Assembly: GCA_029392055.1 (NCBI GenBank)
Contig: CP113928.1
Span: 1,238,501 to 1,302,500 of the forward strand
Length of the DNA: 64,000 bases
Source of the DNA: Leuconostocaceae bacterium ESL0723
GTDB lineage: Bacteria > Bacillota > Bacilli > Lactobacillales > Lactobacillaceae
Direction of reading: 5' to 3'
The position numbers and the translations under genes were made by a program. This document shows, piece by piece, positions 8,376 through 38,300 of the stretch. Within the stretch, counting starts at the first letter, position 1. Each line of letters begins with the position of its first letter. Under the pieces are notes generated by a model, which was not told the DNA's origin, ran no database searches, and was given only the letters and a program-made list of their open reading frames with translations.

Positions 8376-8466
8376 ATTTCCTTCTCCTGGATGTTAGGCA
8401 ACCCAACATCCGCACAATTTCCCACATTGTACCAGATAATCACCTACCAGCAACTTGATAAAGCAC

Positions 8467-8505
8467 ACAAAAAAAGCCGGTCCAAAATCGGATCGGCTTT
8501 CGTTT
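8467..8505 (-). terminator. Terminator of the 430-residue surface protein gene
   Basis: AGCCGATCC and GGACCGGCT (minus strand, one mismatch) pair around GATTTT and are followed by a seven-base T-run. Confidence 0.7.
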
Positions 8506-8520
8506 TGAACATTTAAATGA

Positions 8521-9813
8521 TTAAACGTCCTTACGCTTCTTAGTGAAGAAGGCATAAGTTGCAGCTGAGGCACCAAGACCAAGCAAAGCCGCAGCTTCGG
8601 CAGCTTGGTTGTTGTTGGCAGTCTTAGCCGTGTCAGGCAGGGCTGAGGCTGACTTAGGGGCCTTGTGACCGTGGTGGTGACGGTCGAACTTGGCTGGTTC
8701 AGGCTTACCCTCACCAGGCTTGTGGTCGTGGTGCTTACCTGGCTTTTCGCCTGGCTTGTGATGGTCCTTGGCAGGCTTACCAGCATCAGCCGCACTTTGT
8801 GAGGCTGAAGTTGAAGCAGCCAGTGAACCGCTAGTTGATGCTGACGTTGAGGCAGCAGTTGAGCCGGCAACAGAGCCACTAGTAGAAGCAGCCGTTGAGC
8901 CAGCCAGTGAACCACTAGCACTCAAAATGTTAGTGTTGGCCTGGCTCTTAGCAGTTGAAGCAGCAGCGCTGGCTGAGGTAGAAGTAGATGCCGCAGCACT
9001 CTTAGCAGCTGAAGTTGAGGCTGCCTGAGAAGCAGTCGTTGAAGTAGCCGTGCTGGATGCAATCGTTGCGGGGTTGTCATCAGGGGTACCAATGGCAAGG
9101 GCAGCATTAGTAGTCGTAAGAGGCAGGCTCTTACCATCAGCAACGCTGGTGTAAGTAGCGTTAAGGTGGATAGCTTCGTCATAGTAAGAACCAGGCTTAA
9201 CCGTGATTAAAGTCTGGACAGCCAAAGGATCAGTTGCCGTAGTATCCTGGTTGAAAGTGTAAGTGAAGCCAGAGCTATCAGGCAAGACTGCGAATGAGCC
9301 AGTGCTTGGTGCGTTCAAAACCGCTGAATCACCACCAACAAAGGTTGCGGCCTGGTTGTTTTGGTTATCAAACCAAACCTTGATTTGGTCACCCTTTTGG
9401 TAAGTCTGACCCTTACCATCAATGGCAACCGTCACAGGGATTGAAGTGTCCTTGCTGTAAGGCTGGTTGTTGGTATCAGTGTTGCCAACCGTAATGTCAG
9501 CGGCCTTGGCCTTTGACGAGTTATCAGGCGTGGTAGCAGCATTAGTCGTCGTAGGCGTAGTTGATGGTGCCGTTGAAGTAGGCGTGGTGTTGTTGCTAGT
9601 TGGCAACGTTGCCGTCTTACTGTCCTGGTTGTATGTGTTTAAGATGTCTTTCTGAGCTGATGAAATGGTATCATCGTCGTTAGACTGGTTGGTAGTATCC
9701 GCGTTGGCACCAGTGGTAGTTGCCAAACCAACCGTCAATCCCAGCGCACTTACGCCGGCAGTCAACCAAAACTTACCTGCTTTGTAAGACTTGTAATTTT
9801 GTGTGTTCTTCAT
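8521..9813 (-). CDS. LPDTA-anchored surface protein with serine/alanine repeats and a His-rich stalk
   Basis: The 430-residue product has four parts. Residues 1-39 are a KxYKxGKxW-type signal peptide ([19 protein letters not shown]) ending near ANA-DTT. Residues about 100-245 form a non-repetitive domain rich in beta-prone sequence. A Ser/Ala/Thr-rich low-complexity region follows to about 340. A His/Lys/Pro/Gly-rich stretch of about 38 residues (with HHDHKPGEGK and HHHGHK) leads into the sorting signal LPDTA at 392-396, a hydrophobic stretch and a KKRK tail. This predicts covalent cell-wall attachment by sortase. It lies 203 bp downstream of a second protein with a related N-terminal domain. 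Ligand unknown; adhesin is an inference from architecture. Confidence 0.85.
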   Translation of the reverse strand: MKNTQNYKSYKAGKFWLTAGVSALGLTVGLATTTGANADTTNQSNDDDTISSAQKDILNTYNQDSKTATLPTSNNTTPTSTAPSTTPTTTNAATTPDNSSKAKAADITVGNTDTNNQPYSKDTSIPVTVAIDGKGQTYQKGDQIKVWFDNQNNQAATFVGGDSAVLNAPSTGSFAVLPDSSGFTYTFNQDTTATDPLAVQTLITVKPGSYYDEAIHLNATYTSVADGKSLPLTTTNAALAIGTPDDNPATIASSTATSTTASQAASTSAAKSAAASTSTSASAAASTAKSQANTNILSASGSLAGSTAASTSGSVAGSTAASTSASTSGSLAASTSASQSAADAGKPAKDHHKPGEKPGKHHDHKPGEGKPEPAKFDRHHHGHKAPKSASALPDTAKTANNNQAAEAAALLGLGASAATYAFFTKKRKDV

Positions 9814-9915
9814 AGTCTTCCCTCTTCTCTATTCTAGTTTCTAAAGATTTAATAAAGTTATTTTACCATTTCTTAATTATTTTTTGATAGTAATTGTGAA
9901 AAAATTATAAATAAG

Positions 9916-9938
9916 ATACAAATGTGCCATATTTGTAT
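9916..9938. promoter_or_regulatory. Inverted repeat upstream of the 430-residue surface protein gene
   Basis: ATACAAAT and ATTTGTAT pair perfectly across seven bases, about 100 bp upstream of the start codon and next to a TATAAT-like sequence on the minus strand. There is no adjoining T-run in the right place, so an operator is the likeliest reading. Confidence 0.4.
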
Positions 9939-9973
9939 TATAATTCCGCCATTTAACCTAGCTGAAGGCAAAT

Positions 9974-10007
9974 AAAAAGGGCGACCCCATTAGGGTCGTC
10001 CTTTTTT
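9974..10007 (-). terminator. Terminator of the 1044-residue serine-rich protein gene
   Basis: AAAAAGGACGACCC pairs with GGGTCGCCCTTTTT (minus strand, one mismatch) around a short loop, just after the stop codon of the serine-rich gene. Confidence 0.8.
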
Positions 10008-10016
10008 ATTTAAAAC

Positions 10017-13000
10017 TTAGTCACTCAGGGCGCTACTTGAAGCAGATTCACTGCTGTAGGTTGATTCAGCGGTTGAATCAGTGTAGCTGTTAGAAGCTGA
10101 ACGACTTTCGTCATCTGAAGTCGAAGCGCTCGAGCTCGTTGAGTTACTTACTGAAAGTGAGTAAGCCAGGCTAGCTGAGTTAGCAGCTGACTGGTTGTAT
10201 GAAGTTGAGGCGCTGCTTGAAGCAGAGGCAGAAGTGCTTGCTGAAGTTGAGCGTGAACTTGAACCAGAAGCGCTGGTTGAAGCTGACGTGGAAGCCTGCT
10301 GTGAAGCTGAGTTAGAACTGTCAGTTGAAGCACTCGTTGAGGTACTTGCTGATGCAGCAGTCGAAGCTGACTGAGAATCAGAAGTCGAGGCACTCGTTGA
10401 TGCCGATTCGGATCCAGCCTTCGAGGCAGAAGTAGAAGCTTCATCGGAAGCTGAAGCCGACGTCGAATCTGAGGCAGAGGTTGACGTTGATTCCGAAGCA
10501 GCCTTGGAAGCGCTCGTGGATGCATCAGTTGAAGCTGAGATTGAGGCACTGTCTGAAGCAGCAGTTGAAGTGCTTGCTGAAGTTGAGGCCGTCTTGGAAG
10601 CGGCTTCAGAAATTGAAGCGCTGGTTGAAGCAGCCTTTGACTGACTAGCAGCCTGAGAGGCACTCCGAGTAGCTGACTTTGAGCCACTTACTGAGGCAGA
10701 AGTGCTTTGAGCCTGTGAAAGGGAAGTGCTTGCTGAAGTTGATTCGCTGACTGACTGAGATTCAACGATGCTTTCAGAAACGGAATCGCTCAGGTCAGAT
10801 GACTCTGAAGTACTATCTGAGAGGGAGTCAGAAGCACTAGTGGAAGCATCTTCGGATGCTGATTCTGAGGCTGAAGTTGAAGTAGATGCGCTCGTTGATG
10901 AAGACTCTGAAGCAGCAGTTGAGGCACTTGCTGAAGCGGCATCTGAAGCAGACGTAGAAGCCGAAGCAGAAGTTGATTCAGAAGCGCTAGTTGAAGCTGA
11001 TTCTGAGGCAGCCGTTGATGCGCTGGTTGAAGCTGAAGTTGATGCGTCGGTCGATGCAGATTCTGAAGCAGCCTTGGATGCACTCGTGGAGGCATCGTTA
11101 GAAGCCGCAGTTGATGCTGATTCGGATGCGCTCGTTGAAGCATCGGTGGAGACTGATTCGGAGCCGGCCTTTGAGGCACTCGTGGAGGCATCGTTTGATG
11201 CAGCTGTTGAAGCCGAAGTAGAAGCATCGGTTGATGCGGATTCGGAAGCAGCCTTGGATGCACTCGTTGAAGCATCGTTAGAAGCCGCAGTTGATGCTGA
11301 AGTTGATGCGTCAGTTGAAGCCGATTCAGATGCTGCCTTGGATGCGCTCGTTGAAGCATCGTCAGAAGCTGCGGTCGATGCTGAAGTTGATGCGTCAGTT
11401 GAAGCCGATTCAGATGCTGCCTTGGATGCGCTCGTTGAAGCATCGTCAGAAGCTGCGGTCGATGCTGAAGTTGATGCATCAGTTGAAGCTGATTCGGAAC
11501 CAGCCTTGGATGCACTGGTTGAAGCGTCATCAGATGCGGCAGTTGAGGCTGAATTCGAGGCAGCGGTTGAAGCTGATTCGGAACCAGCCTTGGATGCACT
11601 GGTTGAAGCATCATCGGATGCTGCGGTTGAAGCTGAAGTTGAAGCATCAGTGGATGCAGATTCTGAACCAGCCTTTGATGCACTCGTTGAAGCATCATCA
11701 GAAGCTGCGGTTGATGCTGAAGTCGAAGCATCAGTGGATGCAGATTCTGAACCAGCCTTTGATGCACTCGTTGAAGCATCATCAGAAGCTGCGGTTGATG
11801 CTGAATTTGAAGCATCAGTTGAAGCAGACTCTGAACCGGCCTTTGATGCACTCGTTGAAGCATCGTTAGAGGCACCCGCTGAGACTGATGTAGATACATC
11901 GTTAGAAGCTGAGGTCGAAGCCGAAGTAGATGCATCAGTTGAAGCTGACTCTGAGCCGGCCTTGGATGCACTGGTTGAAGCATCATCAGATGCTGCCGTT
12001 GATGCTGATGAAGATGCATCGTTAGATGCGGCAGTCGATGCTGAAGTAGACGCATCAGTTGAGCCTGATTCAGAGGCAGCCTTGGATGCGCTCGTTGAGG
12101 CATCGTCAGAGGCGGCGTTTGAAGCCGACGCTGACGCAGCATTTGAAGCTGCGGTCGAGTCAGAACTTGAATTTGCCTGTGAGGCTGACTGGGAAGCGCT
12201 GGTTGAGGCCGACTGTGAGTCAGAATCAGAACTAGTGTTAGAAGTTGGCTCGGAACCGTCAGGGTTACCGCCAACTGAGAAAGTACTGTTACCAGTGTTA
12301 ATCAGGTGGGCCGTCTTACCAACGAAATCACTGGTAATGAAGAGACCATACTGGGAAGTAGCATCCCCAGCAACCTGAGCATTAAAGGCCACCGTGTAGC
12401 CATTGCCAGTTGATCCATCATTAAAGGTGTAATAAATCTGGGAACGGCTGGCATCATAGCTCAACTGGCCACCGGTAGTGCTCGTTGGCGTAACGCCACT
12501 CAAGAACGGTGAAGGCGTACTACCATTTGATTTAAATGAAATTGTCACCCGGTCGCCAGCGTTATAAGTCTGACCACCTGGAACCTGGATTTCAAACGGA
12601 ATCGTTTGACCAGCGTAGAAAGTGTTGTTAACCGGATCAACTTCGTTAACGTTGATGCCTGCACCGTTGTTGGTGTTGGCAGAAGTGCTGTCGCCATCGC
12701 GATTGGTGATGCCTTGACTGTCCGCAGTGGAGTCTGCGGTCGTGTTAGCCGTGGTATTCGCCTGGCTATCAGAAGTTGAATCAGACAAGCCAGTCGTGTC
12801 AGCTTGACTGTTAGCAGTGCTATCAGCCTGACTGTCGGCAGTGGAATCGGCAGTTGTATTAGCGGTTGAATCTGCGGTGCTATCCGCAGTTGTGTTCGCA
12901 GCACTACTAGTGCTGTCAGCCGTTGAGTCCTGACCAGACGTCAAATCAGCCGAATCCACCTGGGTGGTTTCACTGGCCTGGGTGCTGCTCTGCGTAGGGG

Positions 13001-13151
13001 CTGTCGTGGTGTCGTCGGCATGGGCATCATTGTTCGCCCCGGCCGTCAAACCAACGCCCAGACCCAGCGCGCTAACGCCGGCAGTCAACCAAAATTTACC
13101 TGCTTTGTAAGATTTAAAGTGTTTTTTATTATCATTGTTATTACTATTCAT
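10017..13151 (-). CDS. Serine-rich repeat surface protein without cell-wall sorting signal
   Basis: The 1044-residue product has a KxYKxGKxW signal peptide (residues 1-45) and a Thr/Ser/Asp/Ala-rich linker to about 160. A domain of about 130 residues (165-295) resembles that of the next gene: [20 protein letters not shown] aligns with ITVGNTDTNNQPYSKDTSI. About 740 residues of Ser-rich repeats run to the end. The middle holds near-identical 28-residue units with [11 protein letters not shown]. The chain ends SASSSALSD directly before the stop and terminator, with no LPxTG, hydrophobic segment or basic tail. Such signal peptides usually mark substrates of the SecA2/SecY2 pathway that are O-glycosylated on Ser. 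Without an anchor it may be released or held non-covalently. Confidence 0.85.
11050..12110 (-). repeat. 84-bp tandem repeats coding for 28-residue Ser/Ala units
   Basis: Within the serine-rich gene the segment coding for [17 protein letters not shown] and following residues recurs at an 84-bp period. For example, the same 29-base stretch starts at 11673 and again at 11757. Neighbouring units differ by a few synonymous or conservative changes. Arrays like this expand and contract by recombination. Confidence 0.8.
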
Positions 13152-13233
13152 AAACTATCCTCCCTTTCCAAAGGCAATTCATTGGCAAATCTGTTCAAAT
13201 ATTCCTGCCAATTCAAGGCAAGTTTAACAGCTC

Positions 13234-13266
13234 TATCTTTATACTTTCTTTACACTTTCTTTACAC
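13234..13266 (-). promoter_or_regulatory. Three 11-bp direct repeats upstream of the serine-rich gene
   Basis: Read on the plus strand, TATCTTTATAC, TTTCTTTACAC and TTTCTTTACAC follow each other without gap (13234, 13245, 13256); the last two are identical. The period equals one helical turn, as in tandem sites of OmpR-type response regulators. A separate dyad AAGACA-N5-TGTCTT lies next to it at 13271-13287. Confidence 0.5.
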
Positions 13267-13373
13267 TTCCAAGACACGTTTTGTCTTTGTATAATATCTC
13301 TGATTTTTAGAGATTGTCCTTATCAAGCGCTAAACAAATATTTTATAAAAAAATACTCATATTTAATATTGGA

Positions 13374-13417
13374 AGAAAAAAGGCTCAGAACCTTAACATT
13401 CGTTAAAGCTCTGAGCC
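13374..13417 (-). terminator. Terminator of the LytTR-DUF3021 operon
   Basis: GGCTCAGA pairs with TCTGAGCC, and inside it TTAAC pairs with GTTAA, giving a long two-part hairpin followed by TTTTTT on the minus strand. Confidence 0.8.
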
Positions 13418-13423
13418 AGTTAG

Positions 13424-13879
13424 TTAACGGCGAATTTGTTGTAATTTTTGGTTGAGCTGGTCGACATTTTGCCGGGCCCAACGCTTGTAAATGGCCCCTG
13501 CTAGCAAGTAATAACCGACGTAAATTAGCGAAAAGACCAGAAAATTCACAGTGTTTAAATTAAACCAGTCAGCCAGGAAGGCTAAAATACTGAAGCCAAC
13601 ATATGTCACCAGGAAGTGAACAATCCTTTGCCGGTCAATACTCCAACGCTCAATGTTGAAAATGTAATTTGCCGCACCAAAGACTAAGCCCATCCCCATC
13701 CACAAAAAAGTGGACACCAGCGTTGCCATCAAGGGGCTACTAAAGCGGTTCACAAATTCTGGGGAACTGGGCATCCAGTAATGGGTCCCATTGATTAGTG
13801 AAAAGAACATGGCAAAGCCGTAGCCAACGCACAATCCCCGCAGGGCCATGCGCCACAAATATTTCAAAACTGCCTTCAT
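13424..13879 (-). CDS. DUF3021 family membrane protein
   Basis: The 151-residue protein has four hydrophobic segments (about 9-30, 45-70, 85-105 and 110-128) and a short cytosolic tail with KRWARQNVDQLNQKLQQIRR. This matches DUF3021 proteins, which are encoded directly after LytTR regulators in many Firmicutes. The ATG at 13879 overlaps the last codon of the regulator (ATGA) and has AGGAG eight bases upstream; a longer upstream frame has no ribosome site. By analogy to LytTR regulatory systems, it may hold its regulator inactive at the membrane until a signal arrives; the signal is unknown. Confidence 0.85.
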   Translation of the reverse strand: MKAVLKYLWRMALRGLCVGYGFAMFFSLINGTHYWMPSSPEFVNRFSSPLMATLVSTFLWMGMGLVFGAANYIFNIERWSIDRQRIVHFLVTYVGFSILAFLADWFNLNTVNFLVFSLIYVGYYLLAGAIYKRWARQNVDQLNQKLQQIRR

Positions 13880-14319
13880 GATAAGTACTCCTTTCGAATT
13901 TGCTGCATGTAACGTCGGGAAGCAAAGCAAACCTGCCCATTGGTTAAAATCACCTGATAAAGACCCGATTGGGTCAGGGCAAAGCGTTCAATCATTGCCC
14001 GGTTGACAATCTCCCCGCTTGATATCTGAATAAAGCGGTGCCGGGACAACTCATCCCGCAACTGATAAATCCGGGCCGCCACCCGGTAAACACCGGACTG
14101 GGTTTGACAGTAGACCGCTTTTTTCTCGGTATAGACCCGTTCAATTTGGTAAACCGGGATGTAACGGTAGCCGTCCTCATCACTGACTTGGAGTTGCTGC
14201 CGGTCGACCAAATCCCTGAGATCATCGAACAGATCCAGCATCCCCCGGTTTTCCTGCCGGACATTTAAACTCAAATTATTTTCGGGTAAGTCCGGATTCA
14301 CATTAAAAGAAACTTCCAT
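13876..14319 (-). CDS. LytTR-domain transcription regulator
   Basis: This 147-residue protein lacks a receiver domain. Residues 1-45 are a short N-terminal extension and 46-145 are a LytTR DNA-binding domain, with characteristic segments YIPVYQIERVYTEKKAVYCQT, RFIQISSGEIVNRAMI and FASRRYMQQIRK. It overlaps the DUF3021 gene by four bases and is divergent from an ABC transporter. Two 9-bp direct repeats matching the LytTR consensus lie 70-100 bp upstream of its start, so it probably regulates its own operon and the transporter. Confidence 0.9.
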   Translation of the reverse strand: MEVSFNVNPDLPENNLSLNVRQENRGMLDLFDDLRDLVDRQQLQVSDEDGYRYIPVYQIERVYTEKKAVYCQTQSGVYRVAARIYQLRDELSRHRFIQISSGEIVNRAMIERFALTQSGLYQVILTNGQVCFASRRYMQQIRKEYLS

Positions 14320-14388
14320 CTCCAGGGCTCCTTTCTCCTGATGCCCTTAGTTATACCGGACAAAAAGTTCAGAAACCAGGGTTTAACG

Positions 14389-14418
14389 ATAAACGGTCCC
14401 TCAACCAAACTAAACGGT
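14389..14418 (-). promoter_or_regulatory. LytTR-type operator (two 9-bp direct repeats)
   Basis: On the minus strand ACCGTTTAG (14410-14418) and ACCGTTTAT (14389-14397) both fit the published LytTR consensus [TA][AC][CA]GTTN[AG][TG]. They are separated by exactly 12 bases, so they repeat at 21 bp, two helical turns. They lie between the LytTR gene and the ABC transporter it faces. Confidence 0.75.
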
Positions 14419-14444
14419 TTACCCTCACCATTTATCCCTGGCTA

Positions 14445-14473
14445 ACGACCACTTAGTTAGAATGATTGGTCGT
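14445..14473. promoter_or_regulatory. Inverted repeat before the ABC transporter genes
   Basis: ACGACCA and TGGTCGT form a perfect 7-bp dyad 15 bases apart, about 47 bp before the transporter start. It could be a second operator or overlap the transporter promoter. Confidence 0.35.
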
Positions 14474-14519
14474 CGGCATTTCGTGGGCGTAAGATTATTC
14501 ATTGAAAGGGGCCAATACT

Positions 14520-15482
14520 ATGACCATTCAAATTCAAGACATTAAAAAATCATTTGGCAACCAACCAGTGCTGCGCGGCGTTTCCCTATCCCTGGCGGAC
14601 GACCAGTTCATCGGTATTTTAGGACCCAACGGCGCTGGTAAATCTACTTTAGTTAAAATCATGACCGGCCAGCTAACACCCAGTGCCGGGCAGGTCCGGT
14701 GGTACGGTCAGAGTAATCAGCCACTCACTGCGGCCCAACGGGCCCAGCGGATGGGGATTGTTCATCAAAACAGTGTCCTAGACGGTTTCTTAACGGTCGA
14801 AGAAAACCTAATTACTCGGGGTGCTATTAAAAACCTGTCCCCTGCCATTACGCGGCAACGCATTCAGGACTTAAATGGCACGATTGAACTAAATTCCTTA
14901 TTAAAGCAGCGCTACCAAAATTTGTCCGGTGGTCAAAAACGCCGGGTCGATATTGCGGCGGCCCTCCTCCATAATCCCCAGGTCCTGATTTTAGATGAAC
15001 CCACCACTGGGATTGATCCGGAAATCCGGGCCGAGCTGTGGACCGCCATTCACCAGCTGCGCCAGGAACGCCACCTTGGTGTCATCCTGATTACCCATTA
15101 CTTGGAAGAAATGCAAGATGTCGATAGCTTAGTCGTTTTACTGGCGGGACAGGTCCGCTACCAGGGTAACCTGGCTAATTTTATTCAGGACCATGCCCAC
15201 AGTCAGTTGGAGCTGGTGGTTAAGACGCCTGATGGTGGTGAGCACACCATTACCAAGCCCTATGCCGACCTAGCCGAAAAAATGCAGGTTTTAAATGATA
15301 GTTATAGCAGCGGCAGCCTAATTGATTTTCACGACGAACCGGTCAGCTTGGAACAGGCTTACTTGAACATGCTACGTGCAGTGCAGCGTCAATCAAAAGA
15401 AGCTGGACCGGGCAGCCCCGAACCAAAAGCAGTAAAGCCGGATGACACCGCCACCACCCGCCTTAAAAAGTTTAACCACTAA
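14520..15482 (+). CDS. ABC transporter ATP-binding protein
   Basis: The 320-residue ATPase has Walker A GPNGAGKST (35-43), signature LSGGQKRR near 139, Walker B VLILDEPTTGID and the switch histidine in LITHYLEE. The C-terminal 90 residues form the extension typical of DrrA/NatA-like drug or lipid exporters. The ATG at 14520 follows AAAGGGG; an upstream in-frame ATG at 14502 is less well placed. It is 16 bp ahead of its permease and shares the LytTR-controlled intergenic region. Confidence 0.92.
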   Translation: MTIQIQDIKKSFGNQPVLRGVSLSLADDQFIGILGPNGAGKSTLVKIMTGQLTPSAGQVRWYGQSNQPLTAAQRAQRMGIVHQNSVLDGFLTVEENLITRGAIKNLSPAITRQRIQDLNGTIELNSLLKQRYQNLSGGQKRRVDIAAALLHNPQVLILDEPTTGIDPEIRAELWTAIHQLRQERHLGVILITHYLEEMQDVDSLVVLLAGQVRYQGNLANFIQDHAHSQLELVVKTPDGGEHTITKPYADLAEKMQVLNDSYSSGSLIDFHDEPVSLEQAYLNMLRAVQRQSKEAGPGSPEPKAVKPDDTATTRLKKFNH

Positions 15483-15498
15483 TTGAAAGGAATTAATA

Positions 15499-16407
15499 AT
15501 GTGGACATTAACCAAACGTAACCTACTCTACACCGTCCGGGACCGGACCGCCTTTGCTCTATCCTTTCTGTCAGTGGCCATCCTTATCCTGGTCTATAAG
15601 GCTTTTCTTGGTAATTTTCAAAGCGAGGCTCTCCAGGATGCTGCCCACTTAAACACCCTTTCAACTGCTGGTAACAACCTGGTCAACTTCTGGCTGGTGG
15701 CGGGTCTAATTATCGTTACTTCGGTCACCAGCTCCCTCTACGGCTTGAACGTGGTGGTCGATGACCGCGTGAGTGGGAAGATGGCTGACTTTCGGATTGC
15801 CGGGGCCTCAGCCCGTAAAATTTTTACCAGTTACTACTTGGCTGCTTTGATTCTTGGTTTTGCTGTGACTGTGTTTAGTGCAGTGGTTGGGATTGCCATC
15901 TTTGTCAGTCCCAGCGCGTTAACCAACTTGTCGGGCACGGCCTGGTTAAAACTACTGGCCTACATTCTCCTTGGCAATGTCTTGGCCATTTTAATCAGCA
16001 TGCCAATTATTTTATTTCTAAAATCGCGGAGTGGCTTTAGCTCCCTCAGTGCCCTGGTCAGCACACTGATTGGTTTTGTCGGTGGCATTTATATTACGGT
16101 CGGCCAGGTTAGTCAACCCATCCAACGCGTGCTCCTGACAACCCCCTTCGTCCATCTCAACGCCCTGATTAAAAACGTCCTGATGACCCAGGCCGAAACC
16201 GATTTTTTTAGTCAGTTCCCAGAGGGTATTGGTGCCAAGGCGCAGCGGAGTTATGACCGGATTTATGGCAACCAGCTTTATTTCCCAGGTACCGAACACA
16301 TCATCACTGCAACCCAGTCTTTGCAGTGGATTGGCGTTTGGATTTTAGTACTGGCACTGGTGAACTACCTAATATTCAAAATCATCACCAAGGATCACGC
16401 CCAATAA
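15499..16407 (+). CDS. ABC-2 type transporter permease
   Basis: The 302-residue membrane protein has six predicted membrane segments and the ABC-2 permease layout: a first helix after MWTLTKRNLLYTVRDRTAFA, a large extracytoplasmic loop, then closely packed helices. AAAGGAAT precedes the ATG. With the ATPase it forms a half-size exporter of unknown substrate. The pairing with LytTR and DUF3021 suggests export of an envelope-active compound or resistance to one. Confidence 0.88.
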   Translation: MWTLTKRNLLYTVRDRTAFALSFLSVAILILVYKAFLGNFQSEALQDAAHLNTLSTAGNNLVNFWLVAGLIIVTSVTSSLYGLNVVVDDRVSGKMADFRIAGASARKIFTSYYLAALILGFAVTVFSAVVGIAIFVSPSALTNLSGTAWLKLLAYILLGNVLAILISMPIILFLKSRSGFSSLSALVSTLIGFVGGIYITVGQVSQPIQRVLLTTPFVHLNALIKNVLMTQAETDFFSQFPEGIGAKAQRSYDRIYGNQLYFPGTEHIITATQSLQWIGVWILVLALVNYLIFKIITKDHAQ

Positions 16408-17847: not shown

Positions 17848-18399
17848 GTGAAAAAAATTGGCATCATTGTCGGCAGTAATCGTACCAATAACCGCAGCCA
17901 CCAAATCGCGGCCTGGCTAGCCCAGCAACTTAAGGGCTTTCCCTTTGCAACCGAGGTGATTGATTTAGCTCAGGTCGACCTACCCTGGCTGGACGAGCCC
18001 AAGGTCCCGGCCGAGGGCGACTACCAGTTGCCAAGCACCCTGGCCTGGAAAAAGGTAATCGATGGACTGGATGGCATTATTATCGTCTTTCCTCAGTATA
18101 ACTGGGGTTACCCGGCCGTTTTGAAGAACGCAATCGATACCTTGTACGCCGAATGGCGCGATAAGTCCATGGCCACGGTGGTCTTTGGCAGTCACGGTGG
18201 TGACAAGGCCGCCAAGGCCTTTGACTTAGTCCTGACCGGGATTCACGCTCAGATTATGCCGATTAATCTCAGCCTGAATGTTACAAATGACATGGTCGAC
18301 GATCAGAATCACTTTAAAGACATCGACCAGGCCTTGGCCCCCTACCAGGCTGACGCTCAGGCCCTAGGACAGGAATTTGAAAAAGTATTTGGTCAGTGA
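17848..18399 (+). CDS. NAD(P)H-dependent FMN reductase (flavodoxin fold)
   Basis: The 183-residue protein has the flavodoxin-like reductase segments IGIIVGSNRTNNRSHQ at the N-terminus (phosphate-binding loop) and FPQYNWGYPAVLKNAIDTLY near residue 83 (flavin contact), as in the NADPH-dependent FMN/azoreductase family. The start is taken as GTG at 17848 because AGGAG lies ten bases upstream; in-frame codons further upstream overlap that site. It is cytosolic, and its probable role is reduction of quinones or flavins. Confidence 0.85.
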   Translation: MKKIGIIVGSNRTNNRSHQIAAWLAQQLKGFPFATEVIDLAQVDLPWLDEPKVPAEGDYQLPSTLAWKKVIDGLDGIIIVFPQYNWGYPAVLKNAIDTLYAEWRDKSMATVVFGSHGGDKAAKAFDLVLTGIHAQIMPINLSLNVTNDMVDDQNHFKDIDQALAPYQADAQALGQEFEKVFGQ

Positions 18400-18437
18400 A
18401 AATTTTTCCAATAAAGCCGTCATTTTTTGCAATTTTA

Positions 18438-18467
18438 TTACACAAATGTGACAAAACGTGCTATGAT
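18438..18467 (+). promoter_or_regulatory. Predicted promoter of the 23-codon gene
   Basis: TTACAC (18438-18443) and an extended -10 TGCTATGAT (box 18462-18467) are 18 bases apart. The leader contains two further TTACAAA words (18481 and 18492) and a CACAAATGTG dyad within the spacer, which may be regulatory. Confidence 0.5.
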
Positions 18468-18529
18468 AAGACCATTGTTGTTACAAAAAGATTACAAATA
18501 ATACTAAATGATGACTGGAGGTTATCACA

Positions 18530-18601
18530 ATGACTAAGCTCTACTATACTTTTATTGATGCCGTCTACAAGGTAATGATGCAGACTAGCAAGCAAAACTA
18601 A
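18530..18601 (+). CDS. Free-standing 23-residue peptide gene
   Basis: An ATG placed eight bases after TGGAGG opens a 23-codon frame beginning MTKLYYTFID and ending QTSKQN. It is preceded by a plausible promoter and followed within three bases by a strong terminator, so the transcript would encode only this peptide. The peptide has four aromatic and several aliphatic residues with three lysines and one aspartate, compatible with a short amphipathic helix. It is too short for a cleavable signal peptide. I do not recognise it; a membrane-active, signalling or regulatory peptide are all possible. It could also be a small RNA that happens to contain a frame. Confidence 0.55.
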   Translation: MTKLYYTFIDAVYKVMMQTSKQN

Positions 18602-18602
18602 T

Positions 18603-18635
18603 AAAAAACCTAGCTCAATGAGCTAGGTTTTTTAT
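18603..18635. terminator. Terminator between the small peptide gene and the MFS gene
   Basis: AAAAAACCTAGCT pairs with AGCTAGGTTTTTT around CAATG. T-tracts occur on both strands, serving both convergent units. Confidence 0.9.
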
Positions 18636-19973
18636 TTATCCTTCTTCTGGGCGGATTAAGAGGGTTGCAAGGGCCGCGATGACCATGGCCACGGCGGCCA
18701 CGGCAATCATAGCTGGCATGCTTTGCTTAAATAATGGCAAAATTACCACAGAGGCCACTGATCCCAGAATCTGAGGAATACAGATTTGGGCATTAAAGAG
18801 ACCGAGGTAAGTCCCCATGTACTGGCTATCAACCGCATCAGTCACGTAGGTCAGCGGATAAACAGAGAGGGCGGACCAGCCGACACCGACCAGGATAAAG
18901 GCCAAGAACATCATGGCCTGGTTATGCACTAAGGCGACCAGGGCCAGCCCCCCGCCGCCAACCATCAAGGTCAGGCCTAGGGCGGTGGCGTAGAGTTTCT
19001 TGGGTAGGCGGGCGAGCACAAAGGAGAGGCCCACGGCGGTCAGGGCATACAGTCCTGACAAAATACCAAAGAGATTACCACCCATTTGATAACCGGCACT
19101 GTCGGGATTATCCGAGCCAAACACGTTGTGGGCCACGGTGCCAGCACCATAAACCCAGAGATAGCCAAAGGCCAGGTAGGCAAAGAACTGAACCAGGGCC
19201 ATCACCCAAAAGATGCGGGGTGCCCGCTTAAGCAGCGTGACCATTGACACCTGGCGTGGGGTCCGGCTCAGACCATGGTAACGGTCATAGGTCGTGGGGT
19301 CGTATTCCCGCACATGGCTGACCGTCACCAAGCTGAAAATGCCAATGGCAGCGGCGGCGATGTAAAAGGCCCAAGCCACCGTCGGTGGCACCTGTCCCTT
19401 GGGCGCCGTGTTGGGTACACCCACTAGGGTCAGGGCGAAGGGGGCAACCGTAGCCACCACCGTACCGGCGTTGGCTAGGAAACTTTGAACCGAGTAGGCC
19501 TGGCCCCGCTGCTGCTCATTGACCATGTCACCGGCCAGCATTTTATAGGGCTGAATGCAGACATTGGAGGCAATCATGAAAACCCCCAGGATTACAGTGG
19601 CAACCGCCACGGCCGTCCCAGTCGTCCAACCAAAGGAACCGACATTTGGCAGCAAAATTAAGGTCAGCATGGTAAAAATTGACCCGATGATGAGGTAAGG
19701 CAGACGCCGCCCACCTAACTTGGGCAACCAGGTCAAATCTGAATACTTCCCTACTAAGGGTTGGACCAGAAGACCGGCCAGGGGTGGAATCACAAAGATA
19801 ATGCCCAGCAATTCACTGCTGGCGCCAATTGTTTGCAGGAGCCTGCCCAACTGGGCACTTTCCAGGGCGAAGGCCATCTGAGTCCCAAAGATGCCGGCAC
19901 TCATATACATTAGAAATTTAAATGATTGCTGGGGCAGGGTTGCCCCAGCATTTTTGGATGCATCTTGGGCCAT
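18636..19973 (-). CDS. MFS transporter, SLC45/GPH-like sugar permease
   Basis: This 445-residue protein has 12 predicted membrane helices. The segment ELLGIIFVIPPLAGLLVQPLVGKYSD (residues 54-79) is the sugar-transporter-like motif seen in SLC45-type sucrose/maltose proton symporters and plant sucrose carriers. GGRRLPYLIIG follows as the MFS loop motif. It lies upstream of a 132-residue membrane protein gene on the other side (31 bp) and downstream has only the shared terminator. Substrate is inferred from family only; no glycosidase gene is adjacent. Confidence 0.8.
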   Translation of the reverse strand: MAQDASKNAGATLPQQSFKFLMYMSAGIFGTQMAFALESAQLGRLLQTIGASSELLGIIFVIPPLAGLLVQPLVGKYSDLTWLPKLGGRRLPYLIIGSIFTMLTLILLPNVGSFGWTTGTAVAVATVILGVFMIASNVCIQPYKMLAGDMVNEQQRGQAYSVQSFLANAGTVVATVAPFALTLVGVPNTAPKGQVPPTVAWAFYIAAAAIGIFSLVTVSHVREYDPTTYDRYHGLSRTPRQVSMVTLLKRAPRIFWVMALVQFFAYLAFGYLWVYGAGTVAHNVFGSDNPDSAGYQMGGNLFGILSGLYALTAVGLSFVLARLPKKLYATALGLTLMVGGGGLALVALVHNQAMMFLAFILVGVGWSALSVYPLTYVTDAVDSQYMGTYLGLFNAQICIPQILGSVASVVILPLFKQSMPAMIAVAAVAMVIAALATLLIRPEEG

Positions 19974-23144: not shown

Positions 23145-23431
23145 GAAATATAAATGGTTACTACGTTGAACAGATGAGTAAGTGATTTAGCCGGCTAAGA
23201 GAGCTGCAGGTGGTGCAAGGCAGCCCGGTGCGATTGCTGAAGATGGTCTGGGAGTGGACCGGTGTTGGCGAGTTTGGAATAAGCTGACCCCGTTTAACAC
23301 GCGCTACTGTGTTCAGGCATAGCTTACATTTAGTGTGCTGGATAAGATTTGGCCTTTTCGGTCAAAAGATGGGTGGTACCGCGCTATCAGCGCCCCTAGT
23401 TAGTCAAATTGACTAATTAGGGGCTTTTTTA
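23145..23431 (+). promoter_or_regulatory. T-box leader, probably methionine-specific
   Basis: The element has the AGTA region (GATGAGTAAGTG), a distal stem-loop with GGTGGTGCAAG, the core GGGTGGTACCGCG (23371-23383) and a terminator of CCCCTAGTTAGTCAA paired with its complement followed by a T-run. A candidate specifier ATG is at 23243-23245 in GAAGATGGTCTGGGAGT, a context repeated almost exactly in the second T-box of the window. The UGGU of the core pairs with an ACCA tRNA end, as expected for tRNA-Met. Uncharged tRNA would stabilise the antiterminator and switch on the downstream gene. Confidence 0.85.
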
Positions 23432-32379: not shown

Positions 32380-35300
32380 CTAATCATCTACTTTTTTATG
32401 ATGGCGTAGTAAGCGTGAAATCATAGCGACCGAAGCTGCTACCGTGGCGGCACCAGTGGCCTGGGCGCTTGGCCCGAAGTTAGCCCGCTGGGCAGTGTCT
32501 GGTAACCGGCCTGATTGCTTATGATTTGTTGCTGTGGTAACTAATCGAGCCCGGTTTTGGGCTTGGGTGGCTGGATCCACATCGTAGTTAACAGCATCGT
32601 CTGAATTATCGCCTGGTTGAGTGGGCTTGTGAATAGCCGGATCGACTAGGTTAGTGGAATTATCATTGGTGCTATTAGCATGCGACTGACTACTTGATAG
32701 TGACTCGCCGGCAGATGCATGCGTCGTCGATTGGCTATCCCAGGCATTATCCTGGGACGTCGTTAAAGACGCCTCACCCGAACTGGCAATACTTTGAGAA
32801 GTGCTGCTACTTGTACTGGTACTCGTAGAAGCGGCACTTTCAGATTGGATGACATCCGAACTGTTAGAGATAGAAGCCTGATCCGAATCCTGGGCCGCAG
32901 TACTAGTGCTATTTACAGTACTTTGAGAAGTGCTGGTCGAAGTTGACTCAGAGTTCTGGTCGCTTTCGGTCTCAGAGTTAAACTCGGAATCTGCTTGAGA
33001 ATCAACAGCTGACTGAGAACCACTTACTGAATCAACGATGGATTCAGAAGTCGACTGGGACAGGCTGTTAGATACTGAGGCTGAATTTGCCTGGCTAGCA
33101 GACGTTGAGATTGAAGCTGACCGTGAACTACTGATTGAGCTTGACAGTGAATTGCGAGCTGACCGTGAGCTAGAAGTAGAAGCTGAAGCGCTAGCCACTG
33201 TTGACTTAGAAACGCTGGTAGAACCACTTGCAGATGCTGAGGTCGATGCTGACTGAGATGAACTCGTTGAGGCAACCACTGAAGCAGAATCTGAACTTAC
33301 CTTCGAAGCACTGGTTGAGGCTGACTCAGAGGCAGCAGTTGATGCTGACTGAGAAGCTGAGGTCGAAGCCACCGTTGACGTTGACTTAGAAGCACTCGTG
33401 GAAGCCTTCCGTGAAGCACTCTCAGATTGAACCGTGCTACGAGCAGTCGACTTAGAAGCACTGGTCGAGGCTGAAGTACTACGTGCTTCAGAAACAGAAG
33501 TGCTTGCAGAAGTTGATTCGCTCACTGACTGAGATTCGACGATACTTTCAGAAACAGAATCGCTTTGATCTGAAGACTCTGAAGTACTATCAGATGCTGA
33601 AGCTGAGGTACTATCAGATGCATCTTCTGAAGCAGACGTTGAAGCATCAGTTGATGCGGAAGTGCTTGCGCTTTCTGACTGGGATGCAGCCGAAGTGCTG
33701 GTTGAAGCAGATTGTTCTTCACTAGCTGAAGTTGAAGCACTGCCGCTAGCTGATTCTGAAGAACTCGTCGAAGCTGATGTTGATTCAGATTCGGACGCAG
33801 CTGTAGAAGCTGATTCAAAAGTTGAAGTACTCTCAGAAGCGCTCGTTGAGTTAGCAGCTGACTGTGACTCAGTTGAGGCACTTACCGAAGCAGACGTTGA
33901 AGCTGATTCTGAGGCAGCAGTTGAAGCCGAAGTAGATTCGGACTCAGAAGCTGAGGTCGATGCTGAAGTTGATCCTGATACAGAATCAGAAGCAACAGTC
34001 GATGCGCTTTCTGAAGTACTCGTTGAGCTAGATTCTGAACCGGCAGTTGAACCTGATGTTGATGCAGATTCGGAGGCTGACTTTGAGCTTGAAGCTGAAC
34101 TTTCTGAAGTTGAGTCAGAAGCTGAAGTGCTTTCTGAAGTGCTCGTTGAGCTAGATTCTGAACCGGCAGTTGAACCTGATGTTGATGCGGATTCGGATGC
34201 TGACTTTGAGCTTGAAGCTGAACTTTCTGAAGTTGAATCAGATGCTGAAGTTGAAGCACTTTCTGAAGAGCTCTTCGAATCTGACTCTGAAGCTACAGTC
34301 GAAGCTGAAGTTGACTCAGATTCTGATGCCGACTTTGAGCTTGAAGCTGAACTTTCTGAAGTTGAGTCAGAAGCCGAAGTGCTTTCTGAAACGCTTGTCG
34401 AAGCTGAAGTGCTTTCTGAGGCGCTCTTTGAACTTGATTCAGATGCAGCTGTTGATGCTGAAGTTGAATCAGATTCGGATGCTGACTTCGAACTTGATGC
34501 CGAACTTTCTGACGTTGAGTCAGAAGCGGCAGTCGAAGCACTGTCAGACGTGCTCTTTGAGCTTGATTCAGATGCAGCTGTTGATGCTGAGGCCGATTCC
34601 GATTCTGAGGCGCTCTTCGAACTTGATGCCGAACTTTCTGAAGTTGAGTCAGAAGTTGAAGTACTTTCGGAAACGCTCGTCGAAGCTGAAGTGCTTTCTG
34701 ATGAACTCTTTGAATCTGATTCTGAAGTTGAATCGGAAGCTACGGTTGAAGCGCTCTTTGAGCTAGATTCAGATGCAGCAGTTGAAGCAGAGGTTGACTC
34801 AGATTCTGATGCTGACTTTGAGCTTGAAGCTGAACTCTCTGACGTTGAGTCAGAAGCTACGGCTGAAGTACTTTCTGAAGCGCTCTTTGAGCTTGATTCA
34901 GATGCAGCAGTTGACGCTGAGGTTGACTCAGATTCGGACGCTGACTTTGAGCTTGAAGCTGAACTTTCTGACGTTGAGTCAGAAGCGGCAGTTGAAGCAC
35001 TGTCAGACGTGCTCTTTGAAGCGGACTCAGATGCTGCAGTTGAAGCTGAGGTTGACTCAGACTCTGAGGCTGACTTCGAGCTTGAAGCTGAGCTTTCTGA
35101 CGTTGAGTCAGAAGCCGAAGTGCTTTCTGATGAACTCTTCGAGTCAGAATCAGAAGCCGCAGTTGAAGCTGAGGTTGATTCAGATTCTGATGCTGACTTC
35201 GAACTTGAAGCTGAACTTTCAGAAGTTGAATCAGAAGCCGAAGTGCTCTCACTAGATGCCTTTGAACCAGATTCTGAACCTGAAGTAGATTCTGATTCTG

Positions 35301-38300
35301 AAGTTGACTCAGAAGTCGAGGCACTTGCTGAAGTACTCTCGGATGATGAAACGGAAGCGCTCTCTGAAGTGCTCTTCGAATCTGATTCTGAAGTTGAGTT
35401 AGATGCAACCGTTGAGGCACTTTCGGAAGTGCTCTTTGAACTTGATTCAGATGCTGCAGTCGATGCTGAAGTTGACTCAGATTCTGAGGCCGACTTTGAG
35501 CTTGAAGCTGAGCTTTCTGAAGTTGAATCAGAAGCTACGGCTGACGTACTTTCTGAAGTGCTCTTTGAGCTTGATTCAGATGCAGCAGTTGAAGCTGAGG
35601 TTGACTCAGATTCGGACGCTGACTTTGAACTTGATGCTGAGCTTTCGGATGTTGAGTCAGATGCGGCAGTTGAGGCACTTTCGGATGCCGACTTTGAGCT
35701 TGAGGCTGAACTCTCTGAGGTTGACTCAGATTCGGACGCTGACTTTGAACTTGATGCTGAGCTTTCGGATGTTGAGTCAGATGCGGCAGTTGAGGCACTT
35801 TCTGAAGTGCTCTTTGAAGCGGACTCAGATGCAGCAGTTGAAGCTGAGGTTGACTCAGACTCTGAGGCTGACTTCGAGCTTGAAGCCGAACTTTCGGAAG
35901 TTGAATCAGAAGCTACGGATGAAGTACTTTCTGAGGCGCTCTTTGAGCTTGATTCAGATGCATCAGTTGATGCTGAAGTTGACTCAGACTCTGAGGCTGA
36001 CTTCGAGCTTGAAGCTGAGCTTTCGGATGTTGAGTCAGATGCCGTAGTTGAGGCACTTTCTGAAGTGCTCTTTGAAGCAGACTCAGATGCAGCGGTTGAA
36101 GTAGATGCTGATTCTGAAGCCGCCTTCGAGTTGGATTCAGAAGTTGAAGCACTCTCACTCGTTGACTTTGATTCTGAAGCAGCAGTGGAGTCAGACTGAC
36201 TTGTTGAAGTCGAGGCTGAGGTTGAAGAACCTGCTGAAGCGGATTCACTGCCAGCCTTACTGGTTGAAGTTGAGTTTGAAGCAACTTCGGAAGCAGACTT
36301 ACTTACAGACTCGCTCACTGACTGGCTAGCTGACTGAGAATCCTTGGTACTCTGTGACTCAGATTCAGACTGATCGGCAGCCGACTTACTAGTTGAAGCT
36401 GAGGCACTCTGACTAGTTGACTGAGAAACAGAAGTTGAAGTTGATTCAGAAGCGGCCTGTGACGTTGAAGTAGAAGCCTGGTCCGACTCAGCCGTACTTT
36501 GTGAAGTTGACTGGGACTGGCTGCTACTGTGAGAGGCAGTTTCAGATTCGCTAGCACTAGTTGACAGGCTCTGTGAAGTTGAGACAACTTCACTGCCTGA
36601 GTTACTGATGCTGTTTGAACCACTTTGAGAAGTCGAAATCTGACTGTTAATTGAGTTAGATGATGACGTGCTCGTTGAAGCTGATCCAGAAGTTGAGTTA
36701 TAGGCATCCGTGTGCTTATAAACATAGGTATAACTCAGGTCGTGGTCAGTTGGGTAGGTGTCAGTGATGCTATAAGTACCATCACTGTTCTGCTGAGCAG
36801 TTGCGCCAGTAGCAGCATCCTTAGGTAGCTGTGAAGTAACCAGCTCGTAATCAGGGAAATTGATGCTCTGAGCGTTATACGTAGCAGTCCGGTCATTAAC
36901 GTTACTGTAAAGCAGCGTTGGAATCTTGATTTGCTGACCGTTTTCATCAACGTAGTTAACCGTAACGATGGTCTGACCGGTTACCCGGTTAACCAGCTTT
37001 TGACCGTTAGTGTAACCAGTCGTGGTCGTGCTGGTGTTGTCCCGGTCACTGGTGGTCGTAACCGTGTACTTAACCACGTGGTTGGTATCGTTAGGGTTAG
37101 TGAAGCTCAAGTTAGTGTTGATGGCATAAGGAACCGTTACCGTACCGTCTGGGTTGGTATAACGGGCCAAATCCTCGTCAATCACTGACTGAGAAACGTT
37201 GGCGTACTGGGACTTAATCGTGTTGATAAAGTCAGCCTTAGAAAGGGTAACGCCCTGGTTCTTACCATAGTTAATGGTGTAAGTGTACTTGTTATCAGCT
37301 AAGCGCTGAAGGGTGTACTGGCCGGGCTGTGGAATACCATCGGTATAGGTAAACCAAGTAGCATTGGAGCTCGTTCCGTTGGACATGTTACCCCAGTTAT
37401 TGGCCGCCTGAGAAGACCAACCAGCCGCTTCAGTGGCAGGACCGTAAGCCACTGGAATAGCCAGGCGAGGCCAGAATGAAGCCGTGTTAGGCGTGATGTA
37501 TACTGGCGTACCATTACTATCAGCAACCGTGGCTTCAATTACCCGGGTTTCAACATAGTCCTGGCCATTGTTGAGCATGCTCTTTTGAGTGAATGGACCA
37601 CCATCCGTGTTCCGGATTGATGAACGCACATCCACGCCAGTTGGGCCACCAGGCACAACCGTATCAACCGTCTTGCCGACCGTGTTGTTTTCCTGGTAAT
37701 CCGGCGTCGTTGGCGTTGGATTCCATGAGTAGTGGTGCGTCTGATCACCAATCGTCTCGGTGTAATCCAGCACAGAACCATTTCCGGCTTCCCGAGGGAA
37801 TACCTGACCTTGGCTGATATTAAAGTTCAGCTCAATGTTATATTCGCGACCGGCTTCATAAGTGCTGTCATCGATTGGAATAACAATACTTTGACCAGTC
37901 AAAGTAGCGCTCTTACTGATGCCCTTAACGATTGGGTTCAAGCCGCTGAGGGCCCACTGCAATTGACCAGGTTGGTTGTAGAGGTTAGTCGTAACTGGAA
38001 TAACAATCGTGTCACCCTCTTGGATGCTGTTGTTGTGATTCAAGTTAAAGCTAAACTGGGTCGTACCATTCGGTCCGGCACTGGCCGTATCAATGGTTCC
38101 GGCTGGCAAAGTGCTGTTATCAGCGTTATTCCAGCTCACGCTTTGAGTCGTAACCTGCTTGTCCTTAGCCAGGTCGCCATAGTTCAAAGTTTGGGCTTCA
38201 GTGGCATCACGAAGACTCAAACCATCACTGGTTGAATCAGCCGCAGCCCCTTTAGTAACGCCGTTAGTGTTGCTCTTGCTACCCTGACTATCACTAGCCG

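Follow-up and report, generated by a model that had tools for sequence, protein, structure and literature searches.

The two-component system WalRK (VicRK/YycFG), a drug target, is widely conserved and is essential in several Gram-positive bacteria; most of the outputs known for it are enzymes of the wall or proteins of the surface. Genes of the WalR/VicR regulon in Gram-positive bacteria carry the box TGTWAH-N5-TGTWAH (PMC4168254), and the same box recurs at the locus described here, which appears to encode a peptide of 23 residues and which, like those genes, would be regulated together with genes for the surface and the wall. In Bacillus subtilis, a drop in WalR activity is the signal of excess wall hydrolysis and lifts WalR repression of iseA, whose product inhibits the hydrolase LytE (PMC7299342). 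The peptide gene resembles iseA in its predicted control by WalR and its predicted derepression when WalRK signalling falls; it differs in that IseA is a secreted, hydrolase-inhibiting protein with no known sequence relation to the peptide. Likewise, MgrB of Escherichia coli, a feedback inhibitor of PhoQ, is a small membrane-associated product within a two-component regulon (PMC8404706), and membrane association is predicted for the peptide as well, but MgrB, at 47 residues, combines a transmembrane helix with a periplasmic part, whereas the 23-residue peptide has no evident transmembrane helix. The phenol-soluble modulins and LspU of staphylococci share with it the short amphipathic helix (predicted in our case) and the lack of a signal peptide; in Staphylococcus aureus, LspU is exported by the modulin transporters and holds lipases at the surface, whereas the gene described here has no neighbouring exporter (PMC12607899). 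No 23-residue member of the WalR regulon was found in the literature searched, most subscription papers lying outside the reach of that search.

The locus lies in a 64,000-nucleotide stretch of the genome of Leuconostocaceae bacterium ESL0723 (contig CP113928.1), which we call the window and in whose coordinates positions are given. We see about an even chance that it is a monocistronic, genus-restricted peptide gene that belongs to the WalRK regulon, is probably repressed by WalR and acts at the membrane or envelope. The comparison genome is G001, “Lactobacillaceae bacterium L1_55_11”, the sole other species of the genus in the comparison, at about 94% DNA identity. The features of the locus are as follows:

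18426–18453, + strand: three TTACA-type half-sites in 11-bp phase (TTTGCA at 18426, ATTACA at 18437, GTGACA at 18448), overlapping the −35 hexamer; identical in the sister species
18439–18444, + strand: weak −35 hexamer TACACA, with a spacer of 17 to the −10
18459–18467, + strand: extended −10 TGC-TATGAT; identical in the sister species
18480–18496, + strand: perfect WalR/VicR box GTTACA-N5-ATTACA (reverse complement TGTAAT-N5-TGTAAC), just 3′ of the −10; kept in the sister species
18516–18521, + strand: ribosome site TGGAGG, 8 nt before the ATG; TGGGGG in the sister species
18530–18601, + strand: 23-codon frame MTKLYYTFIDAVYKVMMQTSKQN, from ATG at 18530 to the TAA stop at 18599–18601, marked out by its codon use and by an identical peptide in the sister species
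18600–18636, both directions: bidirectional intrinsic terminator with a 17-pair hairpin, common to the peptide gene and the convergent MFS gene

The preliminary description had read promoter, ribosome site, 23-codon frame and terminator as a complete unit, and all of these elements are indeed present in the sequence; they make up a transcription unit whose predicted transcript of about 160 nt includes a leader of about 56 nt, and the stop codon of the frame is followed directly by a second TAA. The promoter and terminator named there come with qualifications: shuffled sequence yields promoter matches about as often (2 found, 1.6 expected), so that the match alone does not exceed chance, and the terminator, which does (3 found, 0.3 expected; hairpin core −18.8 kcal/mol, z −7.9), is shared, since the convergent gene for a sugar-type MFS transporter (18636–19973, − strand) ends at it as well. 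Upstream of the peptide gene lies an FMN reductase gene (17851–18399).

Absent from that description were five TTACA-type half-sites in the promoter region, three at 18426–18453 and two within the 18480–18496 box. Shuffling the local sequence produces a triple half-site with at most two mismatches in 1.4% of cases and a perfect WalR/VicR box in about 1%; the sequence GTTACA-AAAAG-ATTACA matches TGTWAH-N5-TGTWAH exactly when read on the − strand. Counted genome-wide in its DTTACA form, with the reversed pattern as control, the perfect box occurs 11 times in the genome itself (1 for the control) and 10 times in G001 (2 for the control), eight boxes having the same sequence in both genomes. All 11 are intergenic, and their neighbours mostly encode secreted or wall proteins, including an Amidase_5/LysM hydrolase, a D-Ala-D-Ala carboxypeptidase, an aggregation-promoting factor and three KxYKxGKxW surface proteins, one with NEAT domains; beside others there are small frames, 40 and 50 residues long. 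One of the five OmpR-type regulators that the genome encodes is WalR (NF040534, 399.8 bits against a cut-off of 340), and a WalK-like kinase comes after it. PhoP or PhoB was considered as the regulator and rejected, as none of the five passes the cut-off of the PhoB or PhoP model and one passes that of YycF/WalR. We infer from the consensus match and the neighbours that the motif belongs to WalR, an assignment that we regard as well founded; the four other OmpR-type regulators could bind similar repeats.

Codon use is the best evidence that the frame is translated. Its log-likelihood ratio is +3.9, compared with a mean of −7.9 ± 4.1 (s.d.) for shuffles that keep its bases and contain no stop (p 0.0004), and the other five reading frames score lower. 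In a second run the frame reached z 2.97, which can be judged against all ATG frames of 15–100 codons that follow a ribosome site in the part of the window not covered by long frames (10.8 kb): of these nine, seven score z 2.4 to 7.2, including acyl-carrier-like and CsbD-like proteins, and two are chance-like (z < 0), so that the peptide frame groups with the evident small genes. The earlier proposal of a free-standing peptide gene is supported by the codon use, by an intact frame with a silent change only, by the ribosome site and by the terminator, and we conclude that the frame is probably a translated small protein gene.

The peptide is identical in G001, with one silent change in its frame and none at the 48 first and second codon positions, while 11–22% of third positions differ in the flanking genes. 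Across the 172 nt at 18430–18601 there are 2 differences where 9.7 are expected (Poisson 0.004), and the block has no more differences than any of the 68 non-overlapping blocks, although 5% of sliding windows equal it. Because the untranslated leader is conserved to the same degree as the frame and 5% of windows match the block, this conservation backs a function of the unit more than it does selection on the amino acids, which, with two close species only, is inseparable from conservation of the whole block.

It is worth considering, in this light, that the product may instead be a WalR-controlled small regulatory RNA that base-pairs with targets, the frame being incidental and not, or not importantly, translated. 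Such an RNA would suit a transcript of about 160 nt with its own promoter and strong terminator, the equal conservation of leader and frame, and the matches in Rfam, all of which are sub-threshold and include the terminator. However, the gene-like codon use, the good ribosome site and the silent-only change in the frame count against it, and the folding of leader and frame does not surpass that of shuffles (z +0.4 to +0.6), so we consider an RNA of this kind rather improbable. The pattern that the preliminary description had set against a peptide gene, an RNA conserved as structure with the frame lost, is accordingly absent here.

By sequence the peptide is a genus-restricted orphan, outside every known peptide family. 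No relative was found in a protein search of 398 genomes of the family or a DNA search of 60 relatives, nor in plasmids, phages, Pfam, NCBIfam, PHROGs, PADLOC or the PDB. An exact degenerate pattern run against genome and viral collections returned a sole lactobacillus record, the sister species (contig JAQYTT010000002.1), and the gene is single copy in its own genome. Among FMN reductase homologues in 19 other genomes, none has the peptide or a perfect box alongside. Two partial resemblances were set aside as chance. In another genus (L027), a segment of RodA/FtsW type matches at 45%; this match came from a very large search and is discounted because, of the genome's own two SEDS proteins, one aligns with the peptide at the shuffled mean (p 0.49) and the other weakly at an unrelated place. 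In L026, the string LYGFFIDAIYK falls in a frame that lacks a ribosome site and continues into the apparent antisense of a gene.

The preliminary description had called the peptide weakly basic and possibly amphipathic, and both hold up: the net charge of the 23 residues is +2, and the hydrophobic moment is in the top 1–2% of shuffles on two scales (p about 0.01, a modest value). In the predicted amphipathic helix, L4, Y5, F8, I9, V12, V15 and M16 would form a mainly apolar face and K3, T7, D10, K14, Q18 and K21 a mainly polar one. Because charged residues interrupt the apolar stretch, the peptide is expected to be embedded in the membrane surface and not to cross the membrane.

Taken with the promoter, these properties suggest how a WalR-controlled peptide might act. 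WalR would bind the direct repeats over the −35 and just 3′ of the −10. In S. aureus, repression is associated with WalR sites that lie between the −35 and −10 or downstream of them (PMC10746227), and because the perfect box lies downstream of the −10, repression of the peptide gene by phosphorylated WalR is predicted; in Streptococcus mutans, box position is no reliable predictor of the mode of control (PMC4168254), and the direction proposed here is argued by analogy. Falling WalK signalling, which marks high wall hydrolysis, would then turn on production of the peptide, which, by analogy with iseA, would appear at excess hydrolysis and act at the membrane, where an amphipathic, tyrosine-rich helix in the surface might damp activities of the envelope. 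Its target may be a wall hydrolase, WalK itself or the membrane, all of them speculative candidates; the gene adjoins no target gene. One can imagine that the peptide closes a feedback loop in wall homeostasis, being derepressed at excess hydrolysis, binding the membrane and restraining WalK or a hydrolase, and thereby forming a very short analogue of IseA or MgrB with its origin inside a single genus; we hold this fuller scheme to be doubtful.

A peptide of this kind might also work outside the cell. Read as a secreted amphipathic peptide similar to a phenol-soluble modulin or leaderless bacteriocin, it would be exported without a signal peptide and act on membranes or surface proteins. Its size, the lack of a signal peptide and the amphipathic helix fit, LspU of S. 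aureus provides a precedent (PMC12607899), and another WalR-box locus in the genome has three tandem small frames of 40 residues. Yet no exporter or immunity gene stands alongside, the neighbours being the FMN reductase and the sugar-type MFS transporter, and the weak charge and single copy are further points against, so that we find secretion unlikely. The type I toxin with an antisense RNA antitoxin that was suggested previously draws on the length of the peptide and the strong terminator, and transcripts of the convergent MFS gene could run antisense. Toxins of the Fst, Ldr and TxpA types are transmembrane, however, and the charged residues within the hydrophobic stretch set the peptide apart from them; moreover, the gene is single copy, no Rfam antitoxin match exceeds threshold, and a consensus scan of 18300–18800 finds no antisense promoter, in agreement with the earlier remark that none was obvious. 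The suggestion thus fares poorly, and we consider a toxin very improbable. The same applies to a pre-peptide for quorum sensing, of Rgg/SHP or RRNPP type: a length of about 23 residues and an N-terminus that is positively charged and leads into hydrophobic residues would be appropriate, but no rgg-type regulator gene adjoins, and the C-terminus (TSKQN) is polar and not that of a hydrophobic mature pheromone. Both of these are weak readings, and a pheromone, too, would be a considerable surprise.

If the peptide is indeed a WalR-controlled gene product, a genus-restricted output of 23 residues would show that young micropeptides can be wired into WalRK, and the box gives an otherwise anonymous small frame a testable regulatory prediction. 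The genome offers further candidates in the frames of 40 and 50 residues behind the same box. Three tandem 40-residue frames, for example MFSIDFWHILPGSSNTTHVSNSNNAPLANVGAFILRLFGK, lie in this genome at about 61456, 61718 and 61991 of G000:C1 (+ strand; also about 1593 and 1855 of L053 and 1580 of L042), with a WalR-type box before the first (one mismatch) and the third (perfect); downstream of them is a gene for an ABC transporter. Their codon use scores z 3.5–4.0 and they weakly match phrog_32203, of unknown function; they are possible small secreted or surface-active peptides. Behind another perfect WalR-type box, L050 (1583–1735, + strand) encodes a 50-residue protein, MQRPLLSGSL..., with one likely transmembrane helix. 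Within the window, three WalR-type half-sites in 11-bp phase (13238–13265) precede the gene of a KxYKxGKxW secreted protein on the − strand.

Elsewhere in the window, the content and order of 8378–16399 differ from those of the sister species, and G001 lacks the ABC transporter pair of 14502–16407 at the equivalent position. A T-box leader (Rfam RF00230, 94.7 bits) lies at 23157–23400 on the + strand, and a long, internally repetitive stretch at 33800–36100, with many repeat matches of 74–90% between the two species, is possibly a repeat-rich surface protein gene.
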